Shown: positions 30,723-40,744 of the stretch, piece after piece
How the letters are laid out: the number at the start of each line of letters is the position of its first letter
How positions within the stretch are numbered: position 1 is the first letter of the stretch
From: Acidimicrobiales bacterium
GTDB lineage: Bacteria; Actinomycetota; Acidimicrobiia; Acidimicrobiales; VFJN01
Length of the DNA stretch: 44,131 nucleotides
Reading direction: 5' to 3'
Assembly (NCBI GenBank): GCA_030681555.1
Contig: JAUXRW010000113.1
Span: 1-44,131 of the forward strand
The notes under the pieces: model-generated
What the model was told of the DNA's origin: nothing
Databases searched by the model: none
What the model saw: the letters and a program-made list of their open reading frames with translations, nothing else
Translations under genes and position numbers: made by a program

Positions 30723-33308
30723 CTACGACGTGACGGTTACCCGCGGTAGGGCCTCATTGCGTCTCGTGGCGGCGCCCCGCCGTCGAGGCACCCGACGGCC
30801 CAGCGCTCGCACGACGGACCAGCCGAGGGTGCCGACGGCGAGGCTGCCCAGCAGCGCGACCACCGGGCCGAAGCGATCGTCGAGCGGCGGGAACACCTGC
30901 CAGTGCGTGAGGTAGGTGGAGAGCGACCCGGCCGCGACGGCGCCGATCACGCGGGTGGCCGGGCGGATCAGCGGGAGGCTCGGCAGCCACAGGAGCAGCA
31001 GCATCCCGACGACGACGAAGATCTCGCGCTGAGGCTCCCCGAAGTAGCCCGGCACGCTCGCCAGCACGACGGCGGACAGCAGCAGGCGATCGCGAGCGCG
31101 GCCGGCCTGGGCGGCCGCCCAGCCGATGGCGAACATCCAGGAGATGTCGTGCGGTCGGATGTCGTGCGGTTCGACCACCGGCAGGTCGATCACGTGGAAG
31201 CGCACGAGGAGGCCCGCCGTCAGCACGCCGAGCGGGAACCCGAAGCGGTGGCGGCGCTCCAGGCCACGCACCGCCGGCACGGCGAGGAGCAGCCCGAGCG
31301 GCACCAGGATCTGGACGACCGACTCGATGTACCAGTACCCGCCGTGGGCGTCGTCGCCGCCGAGCCAGCCGTTCAGCAGCAGCACGTGGGTCAGGTGGAT
31401 CCGCTCGTCGAGCAGGCTGGCGAAGGCCAGCCACGCCATGCTCGGCACGGCGACGCGGGCGATGCTGCGGGCCCGGTCGGCCGAGCCGACCTGGAAGCGG
31501 GTGAAGTTGTAGCCCGCGATGGCGAGGAGGAGGTGGGCCCCACCGAGCAGGTTGAAGAGCTTGATGTGGGTGCCGACCACCAGCACGATCGCGATCGCCC
31601 GCAGCACCACGCTGGTCTCGGTGCGGACGACGAAGCGCCGCGGGCGGCGGACCGCCGCGAGGTCGCGGATCGGGGTGACGTGCCAGTCCGGCGGCAGCTC
31701 GCTGAGGGCCTCCTCGAGCGCGATCGAGACCTCCACGTACGACATCGAGTCGCCACCGAGGCTGACGAAGGTGTCGGAGGGGGCGATGGGCACGCCCGAG
31801 AGGACGTGGGCGAAGGCCCGGTGGACGTCCGGGTGGATCTCGGGGTGGGGGGCCGGACCGCCGGGCGACGGCGGGACGGTGGGTACGTCGGCCGGGGCGG
31901 CCAGGGCGGCCAGGGCGAGGGCGCCCACGGCGGCGTGGTCGGGCTTGCCGTTCGGTCGCCGGGGCAGCTCGGCGACCGGCACCACGACCAGGCGTGAGGT
32001 GGGGAGACGGCAGGCACCGCCCAGGAGCTCGACGACGGCGCTGACCTGGCGCTCGCCCTCGACCGCCACGAACAGCCGCTGGTCGTCGCTGGTGCAGAGT
32101 GCGGCGAACCCCGCCTGGCCGAGCAGGCGCTCCAGGTGCTCGAGGTCGAGGCGCAGCCCGAAGACCTTGGCGAACCGGGTGCGGCGCCCCACCACCTCGA
32201 ACAGGCCGTCGGCCGTGCGTCGGGCCAGATCGCCCGTGGCGAGCGCGTCGACCGTCGGGCCGAGGGCGAGGTCGGCCGGCTCCTCGGCGTAGCCCAACAT
32301 CACGTTGGCGCCCCGGTAGACGAGCTCGCCCACGTCCGGGTCGTCGTGGCCCTCCACCGGCGCCAGCTCGAAGGACCCTCCGGGGATGGGGCGCCCGATG
32401 GCGGAGGGGTGCGCCTCCGCCAGGTGCGGCGGCAGGTAGGCCATGCGGGCCGTCGCCTCCGTCTGCCCGTACATGACCACCAGGTCCCAGCCGTCGCGCC
32501 GGCCCTGGCGCGCCAGTGCCCGCACCCGCTCCGGGTCGAGGCGCCCGCCGGCCTGGGTGACGAAGCGCAGGCTCGTGAGGTCGAGCGACTCGAAGCCCGA
32601 CCGTTCCAGGAGATCGAACGTGAAGGGGACGCCGGCCAGGTTGGTGGCGCCGTACCGCCGGGCGTCGTCCCAGAAGCAGCGATCGACCACCGACCGGTCG
32701 GTGACGATGAGCGCGGCGCCCGCCAGCAGGTGGCTGTGGATGACGGAGAGGCCGTAGCAGTACGCCATCGGCAGGGACGTCACGCCCACGTCGTCGGGCC
32801 CGAGGCCGAGGTACTCGACGATGGCCTCGGCGTTCGCCTGGAGGTTGGCTCGCGACAGGCGGACGAGCTTGGACGAGCCGGTGGAGCCCGAGGTGCAGAG
32901 GAGCAGGGCCAGGTCCGGGTGGAGCTCGTGGCTCCTCGCGGCCTGCCGCTCGGTGAGCTCCCATCCGGAGCGGACGCCCACGATGACGTCGGGGTCGTAG
33001 GCCGAGATGAAGCCGTCGACCGTGGGGTCGTCGTCCCCCGGCACCAGCAGCACCGGGTGCCCGGCGCTCAGCGCGCCGAGGTACCAGACGAGCGCGTCGA
33101 GCCGGTTGGCACCGGCGATCAGCACGAGCCGGGGCTCGGCCCCGAGCTGGGCGGCCGCTCGCGCGACCCGGTCGGCCAGGTCCTCGTAGGAGAGGAGCAG
33201 CCCATCCGGTGTCGCCACGGCAAGCCGGCCGCCGTGGCGCCGGAGGTCGCTCGCGAACGAGACGGCGCAGCGCTTCGCCGCGAGCGGCGCCGGTTCTAGC
33301 AGGGTCAC
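30723..33308 (-). CDS. AMP-binding (adenylation) - carrier - membrane acyltransferase-3 fusion protein
   Basis: This 861-residue three-part protein has an adenylation domain at residues 15-460: the P-loop-like LLLCTSGSTGSSKLVRLSRA, VMYGQTEATARM, ATGDLARR and the C-terminal lysine in RRPNGKPDHAAV. A carrier domain (about 490-550) has the phosphopantetheine serine in VSLGGDSMSYVEV. About ten TM segments of the acyltransferase-3 family follow (570-845), with the conserved His in VVGTHIKLF. The logic is to activate an acid with ATP, load it on the carrier and hand it to a membrane or extracytoplasmic acceptor. This resembles the DltA-DltC-DltB system in one chain, although DltB is an MBOAT. GTG 33308 follows a -10-like TAACGT (33316-33321, leaderless). 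Substrate unknown. Confidence 0.88.
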   Translation of the reverse strand: MTLLEPAPLAAKRCAVSFASDLRRHGGRLAVATPDGLLLSYEDLADRVARAAAQLGAEPRLVLIAGANRLDALVWYLGALSAGHPVLLVPGDDDPTVDGFISAYDPDVIVGVRSGWELTERQAARSHELHPDLALLLCTSGSTGSSKLVRLSRANLQANAEAIVEYLGLGPDDVGVTSLPMAYCYGLSVIHSHLLAGAALIVTDRSVVDRCFWDDARRYGATNLAGVPFTFDLLERSGFESLDLTSLRFVTQAGGRLDPERVRALARQGRRDGWDLVVMYGQTEATARMAYLPPHLAEAHPSAIGRPIPGGSFELAPVEGHDDPDVGELVYRGANVMLGYAEEPADLALGPTVDALATGDLARRTADGLFEVVGRRTRFAKVFGLRLDLEHLERLLGQAGFAALCTSDDQRLFVAVEGERQVSAVVELLGGACRLPTSRLVVVPVAELPRRPNGKPDHAAVGALALAALAAPADVPTVPPSPGGPAPHPEIHPDVHRAFAHVLSGVPIAPSDTFVSLGGDSMSYVEVSIALEEALSELPPDWHVTPIRDLAAVRRPRRFVVRTETSVVLRAIAIVLVVGTHIKLFNLLGGAHLLLAIAGYNFTRFQVGSADRARSIARVAVPSMAWLAFASLLDERIHLTHVLLLNGWLGGDDAHGGYWYIESVVQILVPLGLLLAVPAVRGLERRHRFGFPLGVLTAGLLVRFHVIDLPVVEPHDIRPHDISWMFAIGWAAAQAGRARDRLLLSAVVLASVPGYFGEPQREIFVVVGMLLLLWLPSLPLIRPATRVIGAVAAGSLSTYLTHWQVFPPLDDRFGPVVALLGSLAVGTLGWSVVRALGRRVPRRRGAATRRNEALPRVTVTS

Positions 33309-33670: not shown

Positions 33671-33752
33671 GCGTGTGACACCCCTTCCTTAGGTTCAGCG
33701 TCGGGTCAGACAACACGGTCGGCGGCCCGTTCTCGTGCCGAAAGGAAGGTGC

Positions 33753-35432
33753 ATGACCTCTCGTCCCCGCTCCCGAATGCCCGGAGGGGCAGCGCTGCAG
33801 ACGAAGGTTCTCGCGGGCCTCGGCGTCGCCGGTGCTGCCCTCCTGGCCTTCCCAGCCGTGGCCGGCGCCCAGGACGTGGACCCGGTCGAGGCGGTCGAGA
33901 CGCTCGGCAAGCAGACGAACCTGCTGTGGGTGATCCTCGGCGCCATCCTTGTGATCTTCATGCAGGCCGGTTTCGCCCTCGTCGAGACCGGCTTCTGCCG
34001 GGCCAAGCACGCCGCCCACGTGGTGAGCACGAACTTCGCCATCTTCGGCCTCGGGTTCGTGGGGTACTACCTGGTCGGCTACGGCCTCATGTTCGGCGGG
34101 TACTCCGTGCCGCTGATCGGGTTCGACAACGCCCCTGGTGACGCGATGATCGGCAGCGGCAACTGGATCTTCTTGTGGAAGGGCGGCTTCGGCCTTACCG
34201 ACATGGCCGGACAGGGTGCCGGAGGCGCCGCCGCCATCGGCTTCTTCCTCTACATGGTGGCCTTCATGGACACCGTGGCCACGATCCCCACCGGGGCCAT
34301 GGCCGAACGGTGGAAGTGGAACGCCTTCGTGGGTTGGGGCCTCTTCTGCGGCGCTATCTACTACCCGCTGTTCGGCGCCTGGACCTGGGGCGGCGGTTGG
34401 CTGGCCAAGCTCGGCGACTCCGCCGACCTGGGCTTCGGCTACGTCGACTTCGCCGGCTCCGGGGTCGTGCACTCCGTCGGCGCCGCCGCCGGCCTGGCCG
34501 GGGCCATCGTCCTCGGGCCCCGCATCGGCAAGTTCAACAAGGACGGCTCGGCCAACACCATCCCGGGCCACCACATCCCGATGGCAATGCTCGGATGCTT
34601 CATCCTGCTGTTCGGCTGGTTCGGCTTCAACGCCGCCTCGACGTTCGCGGCAACCGACGTGCAGTTCGCGGTCGTGGCCACCAACACGGCGCTGGCCGGA
34701 GCCTTCGGCGCCGTGGTCTCGATGTTCTACATGCAGATGAAGACCGGCAAGCCGGACCCCGGGATGATGGTGAACGGCATGCTCGGTGGCCTCGTGGCCA
34801 TCACTGCGCCGTGTGCCTTCGTCGACCCGTGGGCAGCAGCGGTCATCGGCTCCATCGCCGGTGTGCTCATCCCCTGGGCGGCCGGTTTCATCGAGCGTCG
34901 CGGCATCGACGACCCGGTCGGCGCGGTCGCCGTGCACGGCGTCGGCGGCGGGTTCGGTGTGCTCGCCGTGGGCCTGTTCTCGAACGGCACCTACGGTGCC
35001 GGCTGGAACGCCACCACGGAAGGCGCGGCGGCGGAGTCTGGTCTCGGTGTGATGGGCATCTTCGGCGGCGACTTCGAGGTGGGCCTGCGCCAGCTCGGTG
35101 CCCAGGCCATCGGCGTGCTGACGATCTGGACGGTGATCTTCGGGATCGCCTTTCTCTTCTTCACGATCCAGAACGCAGTGATGAAGGGCGGGATCCGTCC
35201 CTCGGCGGACGTGGAGATGGCCGGCATGGACATCCCGGAGATGGGTGCTCTCGCCTACCCGGAGTTCGAGCTCGCGATCGAGGGGAGCGACCCGGAGATC
35301 GGGGAGCGGGCCCTCGTCGGCTCGTCCCGAGGGAGCGAGCCGGAGGCCACGCCGGCGACCAGCACCGGGTTCACCACACCCGGCGACGGCACGACCCCGC
35401 CTCCGGGCCCGCGGCCCTACGGCGGCAGCTAG
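33753..35432 (+). CDS. amt: ammonium transporter (Amt family)
   Basis: The 559-residue protein has an N-terminal signal-like segment (residues about 14-40, ending AVAGAQ) and 11 TM segments. Amt signatures are present: FALVETGFCRAKHAAHVV, DTVATIPTGAMAERWKWNAF, YVDFAGSGVVHSVGAAAGLA (first pore His) and GAVAVHGVGGGFGVLAVGLF (second pore His). The tail of about 85 residues after the last TM is long, acidic and then Pro/Gly/Thr-rich. ATG 33753 follows AAGGAAGG; GTG 33735 is less likely. No glnK lies beside it. The next gene is instead an antiporter fused to GlnD-like sensor domains. Its upstream region carries a repeat array (33622-33670). Confidence 0.92.
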   Translation: MTSRPRSRMPGGAALQTKVLAGLGVAGAALLAFPAVAGAQDVDPVEAVETLGKQTNLLWVILGAILVIFMQAGFALVETGFCRAKHAAHVVSTNFAIFGLGFVGYYLVGYGLMFGGYSVPLIGFDNAPGDAMIGSGNWIFLWKGGFGLTDMAGQGAGGAAAIGFFLYMVAFMDTVATIPTGAMAERWKWNAFVGWGLFCGAIYYPLFGAWTWGGGWLAKLGDSADLGFGYVDFAGSGVVHSVGAAAGLAGAIVLGPRIGKFNKDGSANTIPGHHIPMAMLGCFILLFGWFGFNAASTFAATDVQFAVVATNTALAGAFGAVVSMFYMQMKTGKPDPGMMVNGMLGGLVAITAPCAFVDPWAAAVIGSIAGVLIPWAAGFIERRGIDDPVGAVAVHGVGGGFGVLAVGLFSNGTYGAGWNATTEGAAAESGLGVMGIFGGDFEVGLRQLGAQAIGVLTIWTVIFGIAFLFFTIQNAVMKGGIRPSADVEMAGMDIPEMGALAYPEFELAIEGSDPEIGERALVGSSRGSEPEATPATSTGFTTPGDGTTPPPGPRPYGGS

Positions 35433-35455
35433 ACCACACTCCCCCTCCAGGCGCA

Positions 35456-35490
35456 TCCGGGCGGGCACGGCAGGGGCGTGCCCGCCCGGA
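35456..35490 (+). terminator. strong hairpin between amt and the antiporter-GlnD fusion
   Basis: TCCGGGCGGGCACG (35456-35469) and CGTGCCCGCCCGGA (35477-35490) are perfect 14-bp arms around a seven-base loop. There is no T-tract. It may terminate amt transcription or tune readthrough into the next gene, which starts 44 bases later without an obvious promoter. Confidence 0.6.
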
Positions 35491-35533
35491 GCGCGCCTCG
35501 AAACGAAACCGTCTGACCCCTGACTGACGAGCC

Positions 35534-38239
35534 ATGGACATCGCCGAGATCCTCCGCCACATCCTGATCGTGCTGGTGGCCGCCAAGGTGGCAGCCGAGG
35601 TGGCCGAGCGCGTGGGCATCCCTGCCGTGGTGGGCGAGATCGTCGCTGGGATCCTGGTGGGCCCGTCGGTGCTGAACGCGGTCGGTGGCAACGACGAGGT
35701 CCTCCGCACCCTCGGCGAGATCGGGGTCATCCTCCTCCTCCTCGATGTGGGGATGGAGATGGACCTGCGGGAGCTCGGCAAGGTCGGGCGCACCTCGCTG
35801 CTCGTGGCCACCATCGGGGTGGTGGCGCCGATGGTCCTCGGCATCGGTGCCATGCAGCTCATGGGTGAGGACGGCAAGACCGCCTTGTTCGTCGGCGCCG
35901 CGCTGACGGCCACGAGCGTCGGCATCACTGCCCGCGTGTTCGGCGACCTGCGGGCCCTGGCCACGAGAGAGGCCCGGATCGTGCTGGGCGCGGCGGTTGC
36001 TGACGACGTGATGGGGCTCATCGTGCTCACCGTCGTCGTACGGCTCGTCACCGAGGGCTCCGTGTCCGTCCTCTCCGTGGCCGGGATCATCGGCGTGGCC
36101 CTGCTCTTCCTGGTGGTCGGCGGCCTCGTGGGCCTCCGGGTGGCGCCGCCCCTGTTCGCCGCCATCGAGCGCGTCTCCCGGTCGACCGGCACGCTGGTCG
36201 CGCTGGCCCTCGCCTTCACGCTGGCCTTCGCGGAGCTGGCGGACCTGGCCAAGCTGGCGCCCATCGTCGGCGCCTTCGTCGCCGGGATCGCGCTGACCCG
36301 CACACGCGAGTCGCCGCGGATCCGGCGGGAGCTCGGTCCTGTCGGCCACCTGTTCATCCCCGTGTTCTTCCTGCAGATCGGCATCGACGCCGACGTCGGC
36401 CGGTTCTTCGACGGGCGCGTCCTCCTCGACGCCGGGATCCTGCTCGTGGCCGCCGTGGTCGGGAAGCTGCTGTCCCCCCTCGGGGCGATCGGCGCCGCCG
36501 GCGACAAGCCCCTCATCGGGCTCGGGATGCTCCCCCGCGGCGAGGTGGGCTTGATCTTCGCCACGCTCGGCCTCCAGAACGGGGTGCTGGGCGAGGACCT
36601 CTACGCCGCGCTCCTGCTCGTCGTCCTCGTGACCACGCTGGTGGCGCCGCAGCTGCTGAAGGTCCGCTACGCCAAGCTGCGCGGCGCGACGAGGCCCGTG
36701 ACCACGCCGGCCGACGCCCCGACGCCCGACGGCGGGTGGCTCGCCGTGTCCGCCGATCAGGTGCACGTCACCTCCCGACCACCGGACCACCTCGCCCCGA
36801 TGCTCGGCCTCGACGCCGCCATCGCCCTCGCCCGGCGCCGCCCCACCGACGACCTGCTGGCCTGGCTCGACGACGCCGAGCCGGTGCCGACGTGGACGCC
36901 GGAGCTCACGGACAAGCTGCTCGACGTCATCGAGCGAGGAAACGCCCGGTCATGGCGGTTCGTGGAGCTCTCCCACCTGTTCGATCGCGCGCTGCCAGAG
37001 CTGGCGGACGCCCTGCGGACCCGCCGCCGGGACGGCTTCTCCCTCGATCCGCTCGACCACCACCGCTTCGAGAGCATGGAACGGCTGCGGATGCTCGACG
37101 GCGACGACCCCGTCGCCCAGGAGCTGCGCCAGCTGGCCGAGATCGACCACCTGTTCCTCGCCACGTTCCTCGCCGAGGCCTTCGAGGACGACCTGGATCC
37201 CGAAGCCTCGGTGGTCGTGACGCTCACGAAGCTCCGGCTGCCGGAGGCCGATCGGCGCGCCGTCCTCGAGCTGTTCCACGATCGCGACCTCCTGTGGTCC
37301 GCGGCCCATCGCCCCGGCGGCCTCGGCGAGGAGCCCGTGCTCCAGCTGGCCGCCCATCTCGACGACCCGGACCGCGCCCGCGCCCTCTACGCCCTCAGCG
37401 CCCTGCGCGCCCCGGACCCGGAGCGATGGGAGATGGAACGGCTGCGCACCCTGCACGAGCTCGTGCAGGCCGCGCTGGCCGACGACGAGCTGGTGGGCTC
37501 CGACGCGAGGACGATCGTCGAGGCCCGCCGGCTGCGGGCGGGCGAGCTGGCCGGCGACTCGCCCGGGGCCCGACAGAGGCTCGAGCTGGCGCCACGGGCC
37601 TACGTCCTGCGCACCCCGCCCGAGGCCCTCGCCCGACACGCCGTCCTGCTGGACCCCGTCCCCGCCACCCGCCCCCGCCTCCGGGTGCTGCCCGCCGATG
37701 ACCGCTGGTGGCTGGACGTGGCGTGGCACGACCGCCCGGGGCTGCTCGCGGGGCTGACGCACGCCCTCGCGAAAATCGAGATGGCGGTCGACGACGCCGT
37801 CCTGGCGACGTGGCCAGACGGCGCAGTGCTCGACTCGTTCCTCGTCCGAGCGAAGGGGCCCATTGACGAAGCCGCGCTGCTGGCGGCCATCGAGACGGCC
37901 ACCGCCGCGCCCCTGGCGTCCATGCCCCTACCGGAGGCGGAGGTCGATGTCGACCACCACGCGTCCCCCTGGCACACCATCTGCGAGGTGCGCTGCCCGG
38001 ACCGTCCAGGGCTGCTGGCTGCGCTGGCGACAGCGTTCGCGGCCGCCGGGATCGAGGTGCGGTCAGCCCACGCGACGCTGGCCGACGACCTTGCGATCGA
38101 CCGGTTCGAGGTGACCGACCGTGCCGGGGCCAAGCTGGGTCCGGACCACGAGGAGCGCCTGCGGCAGCTCGTGCGCGCCGGCGTGACCGTGCGGCGCCGG
38201 CGCCTCGGGCGCGGCCTGGCCGTGAAAGCGTTGGCCTGA
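35534..38239 (+). CDS. CPA2 cation/proton antiporter fused to GlnD-like degenerate HD region and two ACT domains
   Basis: In this 901-residue protein, residues 1-385 are a complete CPA2 antiporter: VAERVGIPAVVGEIVAGILV, the ion-binding AVADDVMGLIVLTV (tandem Asp), LAPIVGAFVAGIALTRTRES and GMLPRGEVGLIFATLGL. Residues 430-690 resemble the helical and HD region of GlnD uridylyltransferase (LFDRALPELADALRTRRRDG, then HHRFESMERLRML), but LLHDIGKG-type metal ligands are absent (TFLAEAFEDD in their place). Residues 727-790 and 815-885 are two ACT domains (AWHDRPGLLAGLTHALAKIE; VRCPDRPGLLAALATAFAAA), as at the GlnD C-terminus where glutamine is sensed. No nucleotidyltransferase domain is present. It follows amt, suggesting ion exchange gated by nitrogen status. 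Confidence 0.88.
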   Translation: MDIAEILRHILIVLVAAKVAAEVAERVGIPAVVGEIVAGILVGPSVLNAVGGNDEVLRTLGEIGVILLLLDVGMEMDLRELGKVGRTSLLVATIGVVAPMVLGIGAMQLMGEDGKTALFVGAALTATSVGITARVFGDLRALATREARIVLGAAVADDVMGLIVLTVVVRLVTEGSVSVLSVAGIIGVALLFLVVGGLVGLRVAPPLFAAIERVSRSTGTLVALALAFTLAFAELADLAKLAPIVGAFVAGIALTRTRESPRIRRELGPVGHLFIPVFFLQIGIDADVGRFFDGRVLLDAGILLVAAVVGKLLSPLGAIGAAGDKPLIGLGMLPRGEVGLIFATLGLQNGVLGEDLYAALLLVVLVTTLVAPQLLKVRYAKLRGATRPVTTPADAPTPDGGWLAVSADQVHVTSRPPDHLAPMLGLDAAIALARRRPTDDLLAWLDDAEPVPTWTPELTDKLLDVIERGNARSWRFVELSHLFDRALPELADALRTRRRDGFSLDPLDHHRFESMERLRMLDGDDPVAQELRQLAEIDHLFLATFLAEAFEDDLDPEASVVVTLTKLRLPEADRRAVLELFHDRDLLWSAAHRPGGLGEEPVLQLAAHLDDPDRARALYALSALRAPDPERWEMERLRTLHELVQAALADDELVGSDARTIVEARRLRAGELAGDSPGARQRLELAPRAYVLRTPPEALARHAVLLDPVPATRPRLRVLPADDRWWLDVAWHDRPGLLAGLTHALAKIEMAVDDAVLATWPDGAVLDSFLVRAKGPIDEAALLAAIETATAAPLASMPLPEAEVDVDHHASPWHTICEVRCPDRPGLLAALATAFAAAGIEVRSAHATLADDLAIDRFEVTDRAGAKLGPDHEERLRQLVRAGVTVRRRRLGRGLAVKALA

Positions 38240-38243
38240 CGAC

Positions 38244-38765
38244 TTACGGCTGGCCCTGTCGCAGCACGACGCCGCGTCGCCGCACTGCGATCAGCTCCAG
38301 CCCGAGCGGCCGGATCCTTGTGTGCAGGCGGTTCACGGCGGTGCGCAGCGCGGACGGGTGCCCACTGCCCCCGGTCGTGGCGTACGCCGCGGCGATGGCC
38401 TCGTAGCGCACCACTCGGTCGACCTGCTCGAGCAGCAGGCGCAGCACCGGTACCTGCCCCTCGCTGATCGCCACCCAGCGGTCGCCCTTGCGGAGGAGGC
38501 CGTCCTCGTCGAGCAGAGGGAGGGCGGGCGCGGGGGCGGGAGCAGCGATGCGACCGAGGCAGGCGGCCCGAGCTCGGAGGTCGTCGGGGTCGGGCGGCCA
38601 CCGGAGCCAATCCTCGAGTGGATCGAGGACGTCCGGCGGCGGTGTGCCCTGCTCGACGAGCAGCATCCGGGGGCGGCCGCGCGCGGCCAAGGCGCGACGC
38701 AGCGACTCCTCGGCGGGCCATCGGAGCACGCGCACCTGGTCGTCCTGCGCCTCGGTCCTCGTCAT
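38244..38765 (-). CDS. winged-helix (OmpR/PhoB-type C-terminal) DNA-binding protein
   Basis: The 173-residue protein starts at ATG 38765 with GAGGTG upstream. Residues about 95-170 form an OmpR-type winged helix: LLRKGDRWVAISEGQVPVLR, LLEQVDRVVRYEAIAAAYA, ALRTAVNRLHTRIRPLGLEL and the wing IAVRRRGVVL. The N-terminal 90 residues (EESLRRALAARGRPRMLLVE) look like a receiver-type alpha/beta fold without the phosphorylatable Asp, so it may be phosphorylation-independent. It converges on the antiporter-GlnD gene with four bases between the stops. Targets unknown. Confidence 0.72.
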   Translation of the reverse strand: MTRTEAQDDQVRVLRWPAEESLRRALAARGRPRMLLVEQGTPPPDVLDPLEDWLRWPPDPDDLRARAACLGRIAAPAPAPALPLLDEDGLLRKGDRWVAISEGQVPVLRLLLEQVDRVVRYEAIAAAYATTGGSGHPSALRTAVNRLHTRIRPLGLELIAVRRRGVVLRQGQP

Positions 38766-39486: not shown

Positions 39487-40098
39487 GTGGCTTCCCTCCC
39501 CGTCGCCTCCCTGCCGGTCCCCGCCGAGCTGTGCACCGACCGTCTGCGGCTGCGGCGATGGCAGCCGGAGGACCTCGAGCCGTTCGCCGCGCTGAACGAC
39601 GACCCGGTCGTCATGGAGCACTTCCCGTCGCGGCCGAGCGGAGCGGAGAGCGACGCGATGGTCGAGCGCATCGAGGCGGCGTTCGGGCGCGACGGCTACG
39701 GCCTCTGGGCCGTCGAGGTGGTGGCGTCCGGGCGCTTCGCCGGCTTCACCGGTCTGTGGCCGGCCACCTTCGAGGCTCCGTTCACGCCGGCGGTGGAGGT
39801 CGGCTGGCGCCTCGCCCGCTGGTCGTGGGGACGCGGGGTGGCCACCGAGGCCGCCCGCGCCGCGCTGGCCGACGGCTTCGCCCGGCTCGCCGTCGACGAG
39901 ATCGTGTCCTTCACCTCCGTGGGCAACGAGCGATCGCGGCGCGTGATGCAGAAGCTGGGCATGACCCACGACCCGCACGACGACTTCGAGCACCCGGCGC
40001 TGCCCGCTGGCCATCCGCTGCGCCGGCACGTGCTCTACCGCTTGGGTCGCCCTCGCGAGGCCGAGGCGGACGGGCCCCTCAGGTCGGCGTCGGGGTGA
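39487..40098 (+). CDS. GNAT N-acetyltransferase, RimJ/RimL-like
   Basis: The 203-residue protein opens ASLPVASLPVPAELCTDRLR followed by LRRWQPEDLEPF, the RimJ/RimL start. The acetyl-CoA loop is WSWGRGVATEAARAALADG, and the C-terminal FTSVGNERSRRVMQKLGM motif follows. These enzymes acetylate protein N-termini or small amines. GTG 39487 is preferred; the longer frame reads antisense to the neighbouring gene. Its 3' end overlaps the RRE-SET gene by 20 bases tail to tail. Confidence 0.88.
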   Translation: MASLPVASLPVPAELCTDRLRLRRWQPEDLEPFAALNDDPVVMEHFPSRPSGAESDAMVERIEAAFGRDGYGLWAVEVVASGRFAGFTGLWPATFEAPFTPAVEVGWRLARWSWGRGVATEAARAALADGFARLAVDEIVSFTSVGNERSRRVMQKLGMTHDPHDDFEHPALPAGHPLRRHVLYRLGRPREAEADGPLRSASG

Positions 40099-40744
40099 AC
40101 GCCAGCTCGGTGACGCCGCCGCCCGTGTAGTCGATCAGGATCTCCTCGCCCGCCTCGATGGGCCGGAGGGCCACGATCTCCAGGATCAGCTCCCGGTCAT
40201 GGGCCTGGTACTCGGCGTTGTTGCGCGGGCTGTGGTTGTAGAGGCTCCCGAAGCCGAGGGCGAGGCCGGACCGACCCTCTCTCCAGTCGAACACGTACCG
40301 GCCCAGGACCGTGTGCTGGATCGCGTCCGCCTCGTCCGCCTCGATGACGATCATCGGGCAGCGCTCGATGACCTCGCCCGCGTCGAAGCGACGGCGGGCG
40401 AACACCCCCCGCCCGGCGCCCACGGTGACACGCACCGCGAGGTGCTCCTGCTCCGGCTGCGGCGGTGGGGGCCACTCGACCTCGTCCGCGTCGACGACGA
40501 GCCCGGCTTCGACGAGCTCGGCGACGCAGGCCTCGACGAGCTCCTCCGGGACCTCGGGGAGGTCGAACGCGGACTGCACCTCGCCCGTGATCTCGGCGGC
40601 CGAGCACGGCTCGGCGCAGCGCTCCAGGATGAACAGCGCGGTGGCGGTGAGGTGGTGCTCCCCCCCGGCCAGGTCGGTCACGACGTAGCCATCCGCCGCC
40701 TCACCGATGGAGAGGGCGAAGCCCTGCACGTACGTCGGGTTCAT
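40079..40744 (-). CDS. PqqD-like (RRE) domain fused to a SET-domain lysine methyltransferase
   Basis: The 221-residue protein has two parts. Residues 1-88 look like a PqqD/RiPP-recognition-element winged helix: SIGEAADGYVVTDLAGGEHH, LTATALFILERCAEPCSAAE followed by ITGEVQSAF, then ELVEACVAELVEAGLVV. Residues 100-215 are a compact SET domain: GAGRGVFARRRFDAGEVIER, the NH motif in FGSLYNHSPRNNAEY and the catalytic tyrosine in GEEILIDYTG. No pre/post-SET zinc sites are present. RREs bind leader peptides of ribosomal natural products, and SET domains methylate lysine with SAM. A leader-guided lysine methyltransferase is a reasonable but untested reading. Confidence 0.85.
   Translation of the reverse strand: MNPTYVQGFALSIGEAADGYVVTDLAGGEHHLTATALFILERCAEPCSAAEITGEVQSAFDLPEVPEELVEACVAELVEAGLVVDADEVEWPPPPQPEQEHLAVRVTVGAGRGVFARRRFDAGEVIERCPMIVIEADEADAIQHTVLGRYVFDWREGRSGLALGFGSLYNHSPRNNAEYQAHDRELILEIVALRPIEAGEEILIDYTGGGVTELAFTPTPT

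Follow-up and report, generated by a model that had tools for sequence, protein, structure and literature searches.

Within the window, by which we mean the whole 44,131-nucleotide stretch of DNA analysed, a single open frame of 901 amino acids (35534..38239, + strand) joins a CPA2 antiporter to the whole of GlnD's non-catalytic half, consisting of a degenerate HD region and two ACT domains. It lies 101 bp downstream of an ammonium transporter gene on the same strand, amt (33735..35432, +; 565 aa, with an alternative ATG at 33753; PF00909, E 6.2e-97). As the sensing half of GlnD is here attached to an exchanger that is usually encoded beside amt, nitrogen status probably gates the ion exchange directly, and we judge it somewhat better than an even bet that the fusion is a nitrogen-status-gated cation/proton antiporter working with its partner Amt.

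The N-terminal part of the fusion (residues 1-385, 35534..36688, +) was assigned as a NapA-type antiporter membrane domain by phmmer, by Foldseek and by three invariant residues (D157, D158 and K311), and Pfam places PF00999 (Na_H_Exchanger) at residues 16-375 (1.2e-64, 219 bits). It is followed by a mostly helical region that shares homology with the neck and HD region of GlnD (residues 400-706, 36731..37651, +), identified by hhalign, by its ligand columns, in which the HD ligands are lost, and by its fold, and then by two ACT domains, each carrying a DRPGLL motif. The second of these (residues 802-885, 37937..38188, +) matches PF01842 at residues 816-879 (8.6e-13) and completes a tandem ACT arrangement like that of CASTOR1 and aspartokinase, whereas the first (residues 714-795, 37673..37918, +) is weak by Pfam, with a lesser ACT_6 match at residues 732-754, but clear in the secondary structure of the predicted model.

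The descent of the tail from GlnD had been proposed in the original prediction, with profile-profile comparison set beforehand as its possible refutation, and the comparison came out in its favour. Nine fusion tails aligned by hhalign with 10 canonical GlnDs from the same order gave a probability of 99.8 and an E-value of 4e-28 over 427 columns, the match starting at GlnD column 306 and running to the C-terminus. The NCBIfam GlnD model TIGR01693 likewise matched the fusion (E 2.9e-25), residues 454-882 corresponding to positions 372-847 of its 850; the score of 88.6 bits is far under the family cut-off of 519.4 bits, since the fusion lacks the first half of GlnD. Both alignments thus leave out the nucleotidyltransferase half, which is absent from the fusion, and in a merged alignment H393, H400, H428, H470 and D511, each invariant in 10/10 canonical GlnDs, show no conservation across the 39 fusion tails, where D429, the Asp of the HD pair, is the sole HD residue retained (32/39). 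The proposed loss of catalysis is therefore borne out, as is the presence of an ACT pair, on which Pfam, hhalign and the structural model agree and whose D-x-x-G-L positions are kept in 33-38 of the 39 fusions.

A sequence search of the PDB copy found no solved GlnD structure, and the fold of the tail was assessed with AlphaFold2, using the 39 tails as input. The tail was modelled as a single confident unit (mean pLDDT 93.4, pTM 0.87), in which the best solved relative of the helical region is the neck and body of an A-adding tRNA enzyme of the nucleotidyltransferase family (3wfq; VIA Z 17.0, rmsd 3.8, 234 residues aligned) and the C-terminus adopts a tandem ACT fold resembling aspartokinase (Z 11.0) and CASTOR2/CASTOR1 (Z 8-9). 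The full-length model was weaker (pLDDT 85.9, pTM 0.67), leaving the placement of the tail relative to the membrane domain uncertain, and its membrane part matched NapA 5bz2 (Foldseek 1.7e-16, target TM 0.90).

Among solved structures, the closest relatives of the antiporter by phmmer are NapA (4bwz, 8e-57) and then KefC (2e-15). D157, D158 and K311 are invariant in 39/39 homologues, and the combination of an Asp-Asp pair with Lys marks the electrogenic class of antiporters, which exchange two protons per cation (PMC6181914). KefC, taken to be electroneutral, has QD at its ion site (PMC11150392); this QD motif of KefB and KefC is absent from the fusions, which have DD in 39/39. Judging from these residues, the fusion antiporter is predicted to be electrogenic, moving net positive charge inward, its cation and stoichiometry likewise being predictions. 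Pfam found no C-terminal RCK (KTN) domain, the tail being GlnD-like instead, and so regulation of the RCK type was rejected.

To determine how widely the fusion occurs, we searched the order at a tail match threshold of 1e-35 and found it in 22/397 genomes (~5%), spread over 19/203 genera. A scan of named genomes, queried with the full-length alignment of the fusion, recovered fusions in assemblies that, with few exceptions, were labelled Acidimicrobiia or other actinobacteria; a contig scan with the tail alone as query gave no match, whereas the full-length alignment succeeded. A survey of the phylum added two fusion genomes from another class, and none of the plasmid records covered 80% of the query, so that plasmid carriage was rejected. 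In a tree of the antiporter the fusions form one clade (support 0.91) with the two genomes of the other class at its base, and the fusion thus arose once. Nested inside this clade are ACT-less proteins of 394, 590, 685 and 690 aa, which often still adjoin amt, and the loss of the ACT domains is therefore secondary and occurred at least twice. Parts of the tail were also seen on their own: ACT-ACT proteins resembling those of the fusion stand alone at L061 (6844-8085, -), with amt and PII a few kb off, and at L136 (524-3262, -), both ORFs probably being over-long at the N-terminus, and a soluble 470-aa HD-like-ACT-ACT protein lacking the antiporter at L149 (7533-8942, -).

Purifying selection on the tail is strong. 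Across four pairs of close homologues, dN/dS was 0.04-0.08 in the HD-like region and 0.04-0.11 in the ACT domains, compared with 0.03-0.06 in the antiporter; in a fifth, more distant pair, near saturation, it was 0.13-0.31. These low values in the HD-like and ACT parts indicate that the fused frame is a maintained protein. A chance read-through or fusion artefact was rejected on the same grounds, together with the open frame found in ~40 distinct loci and the single clade.

The tie between the fusion and ammonium transport, which had been proposed from the window, proved to be real, and the second refuting condition set at the outset, a fusion missing from close relatives with amt and antiporter unlinked, likewise came out in its favour. 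An amt directly adjoins the fusion in 30 of the 39 loci that are informative and non-redundant (9/39 are not amt-linked), in three arrangements (amt upstream, downstream or divergent), and this linkage is also seen in the second class. In most loci the linked Amt belongs to a clade separate from the ordinary glnK-linked Amts, and this clade is present in 16/22 fusion genomes against 33/375 others (Fisher p 1e-11, uncorrected for descent). Close relatives follow the same pattern: three genomes of the same genus (G001-G003) and two of the same family (G004 and G006) have neither the fusion nor the linked Amt clade, while G005, of the same family, has both. At fusion-less loci of this Amt clade, PII lies beside Amt in 13/20 and this antiporter in 0/20. 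The window Amt has its twin-His, Phe gate and W/S site all intact, and its closest solved relatives are Ks-Amt5 (6eu6, E 2.8e-65) and the Amt of 8qj3. Four freshwater fusion loci without amt (L077, L078, L089 and L126) carry instead, immediately downstream, a conserved ferredoxin-like protein of 396 aa with a cysteine cluster.

The original prediction had also stated that amt here has no adjacent glnK. This holds for the window, in which no PII ORF adjoins amt, the two PII genes of the genome sitting on other contigs, and PII is missing from the cluster in 15 other amt-linked fusion loci as well. It does not hold in general, since in 14/30 linked loci, mostly of a freshwater subclade, PII lies within 2.6 kb; Amt there keeps its usual regulator, and so the fusion is not a simple PII replacement, and the notion that it replaces PII everywhere was rejected. 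Outside the clade, tailless CPA2 genes adjoin amt in L105 (Armatimonadetes, with PII) and L104 (Acidobacteria). In two Bifidobacterium loci (L117 and L121) a tailless CPA2 antiporter gene is divergent from an amt-PII-glnD cluster, which suggests that the tie between antiporters and ammonium is wider than the fusion.

Examining the genome of the window itself, we found three amt genes, two PII genes and a canonical GlnD whose sequence is divided between contigs C100 and C114. The fusion is therefore an addition to the classic pathway and not a substitute for it, and a replacement of a lost GlnD was rejected. PII was present in 8/9 fusion genomes tested; in the ninth, G024 (96% complete), whose sole amt is the fusion-linked one, neither PII nor canonical GlnD was found, in a single assembly where a gap could hide an amt-glnK-glnD cluster.

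Convergent with the fusion lies a gene for a 173-aa OmpR-type winged-helix regulator without a receiver domain (38244..38765, - strand). Trans_reg_C matches three of its homologues at 2.4e-12 to 3.2e-11, but reaches only 0.03 with the window protein itself. The regulator adjoins the fusion cluster in L052, L054, L066, L067, L070, L073, L075 and L127, in three of which (L066, L073 and L075) it is beside the fusion with amt not adjacent, and its two good paralogues in the window's own genome lie before a PII gene (C62) and beside amt (C39). Its family is thus a further conserved neighbour tied to nitrogen genes, and since in several genomes its relatives are found beside amt, PII and the fusion, it may represent a nitrogen regulator of this group that has yet to be named. 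Elsewhere in the window, one ORF (30723-33308, -) combines AMP-binding, phosphopantetheine carrier and membrane acyltransferase domains, and another (40079-40744, -) joins a PqqD-like domain to a SET domain.

How might such a protein work? GlnD activity follows the glutamine level (PMC4285133), and KefC is controlled by a C-terminal ligand-binding domain (PMC11150392). By analogy with glutamine sensing in the GlnD family, the ACT pair would bind glutamine or a related amino acid or metabolite, and the helical HD-like region would pass the resulting change to the membrane domain, as the RCK domain does in KefC. Weighing against this reading are the PII genes near 14/30 linked loci, the ACT losses in lineages that often kept amt adjacent, the nine loci without an amt link and the uncertain placement of the tail. 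More speculatively, and with the sign of gating being itself a proposal, the rise in glutamine after an ammonium surge would open the antiporter, upon which protons might enter and sodium, possibly ammonium, might leave; the lower membrane potential would then leave less drive for Amt, providing a possible brake where GlnK is absent. The idea, put forward at the outset, that the antiporter offsets what ammonium uptake costs in protons or cations is not supported: Amt is electrogenic (PMC10433425), the DD/K site predicts that the antiporter also brings positive charge inward, and balancing thus fits poorly. In our speculation, it would fit better if the antiporter restrained Amt by way of the membrane potential, or exported sodium or ammonium in nitrogen excess. 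The fullest version of this scheme is a one-protein circuit, in which glutamine on the GlnD-derived sensor sets both the ion exchange and the driving force for Amt, bypassing PII and the catalysis of GlnD and replacing GlnK control where the locus lacks PII; we regard it as possible though doubtful.

The tail could, alternatively, serve as a docking site, with PII (GlnB or GlnK) binding the HD-like region, just as GlnD has to be bound by it, and so controlling the antiporter, while the ACT pair tunes the interaction. PII is the known substrate of GlnD (PMC4285133), and its presence in the cluster in 14/30 linked loci and in 8/9 of the fusion genomes tested is consistent with this, as is L091 (690 aa), which has lost the ACT domains, keeps an HD remnant and is clustered with PII. 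We nevertheless consider docking unlikely, given that the would-be docking region has lost its catalytic residues, that the window and the 15 other loci mentioned above have clusters without PII and that G024, subject to the same possible assembly gap, has no detected PII or canonical GlnD.

That the tail chiefly stabilises the antiporter as a structural part or relic, and that the antiporter is an ordinary Na+/H+ exchanger with an incidental part in ammonium metabolism, appears quite improbable to us. The persistence of tailless or shortened descendants in the clade, and the tailless CPA2 genes beside amt outside it (the four loci named above), would sit well with such a history, but against it stand ACT domains with dN/dS nearly as low as the antiporter's in the four close pairs and with the D-x-x-G-L positions kept in 33-38 of the 39. 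It is very improbable, finally, that the pair is a signalling unit and not a transport pair, with the linked Amt acting as a sensor of the Ks-Amt5 type to which the antiporter responds. The closest solved Amts do include the sensor fusion Ks-Amt5, along with that of 8qj3, and two of the three pore-blocking residues of Ks-Amt5, F27 and F34, are present in the Amt clade (PMC5764959); the third, Y30, is however Val in nearly all clade Amts, related Amts outside the clade share both the F and the V, nearly all clade Amts keep their transport residues intact, and the linked Amt has no fused signalling domain.

In the literature searchable here, the sensory half of GlnD is known solely as a controller of PII modification. 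We found no open-access paper combining an antiporter, GlnD and the ACT domain, most of the subscription literature being outside the scope of the search, and no open-access paper on a proton antiporter with glnK in Acidimicrobiia, which is weak evidence of novelty. A GlnD sensor detached from catalysis, kept by selection and placed on an antiporter beside Amt suggests that membrane energetics can respond directly to nitrogen status, and with the tail glutamine sensing by GlnD could be studied in a natural HD-ACT-ACT module free of catalysis.

The gated antiporter that we favor resembles several known systems in part. It is homologous to GlnD from column ~306 through the C-terminus, where in both the helical HD region is followed by the ACT pair, but it has neither the nucleotidyltransferase nor the HD ligands, a membrane antiporter replacing the catalytic half. 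With NapA it has 38% identity across the whole membrane domain (Foldseek match), the DD motif, the Lys and the PRGEVGL motif being invariant, yet NapA is tailless, whereas the fusion continues into a 500-residue sensor-like domain. KefC and KefB, the glutathione-gated K+/H+ antiporters, likewise have a cytoplasmic regulatory domain C-terminal to a CPA2 membrane domain, though theirs is an RCK and not a GlnD-like domain, and their ion site is QD and not DD. As in the amtB-glnK(-glnD) operon, amt adjoins the gene of a nitrogen-status protein, but in the window the place of PII is taken by an antiporter that carries the sensor half of GlnD. In Ks-Amt5, an Amt-histidine kinase, an Amt family protein is similarly tied to a cytoplasmic signalling part; there the sensor is on the Amt itself, whereas here the sensor-like part is carried by a separate antiporter.
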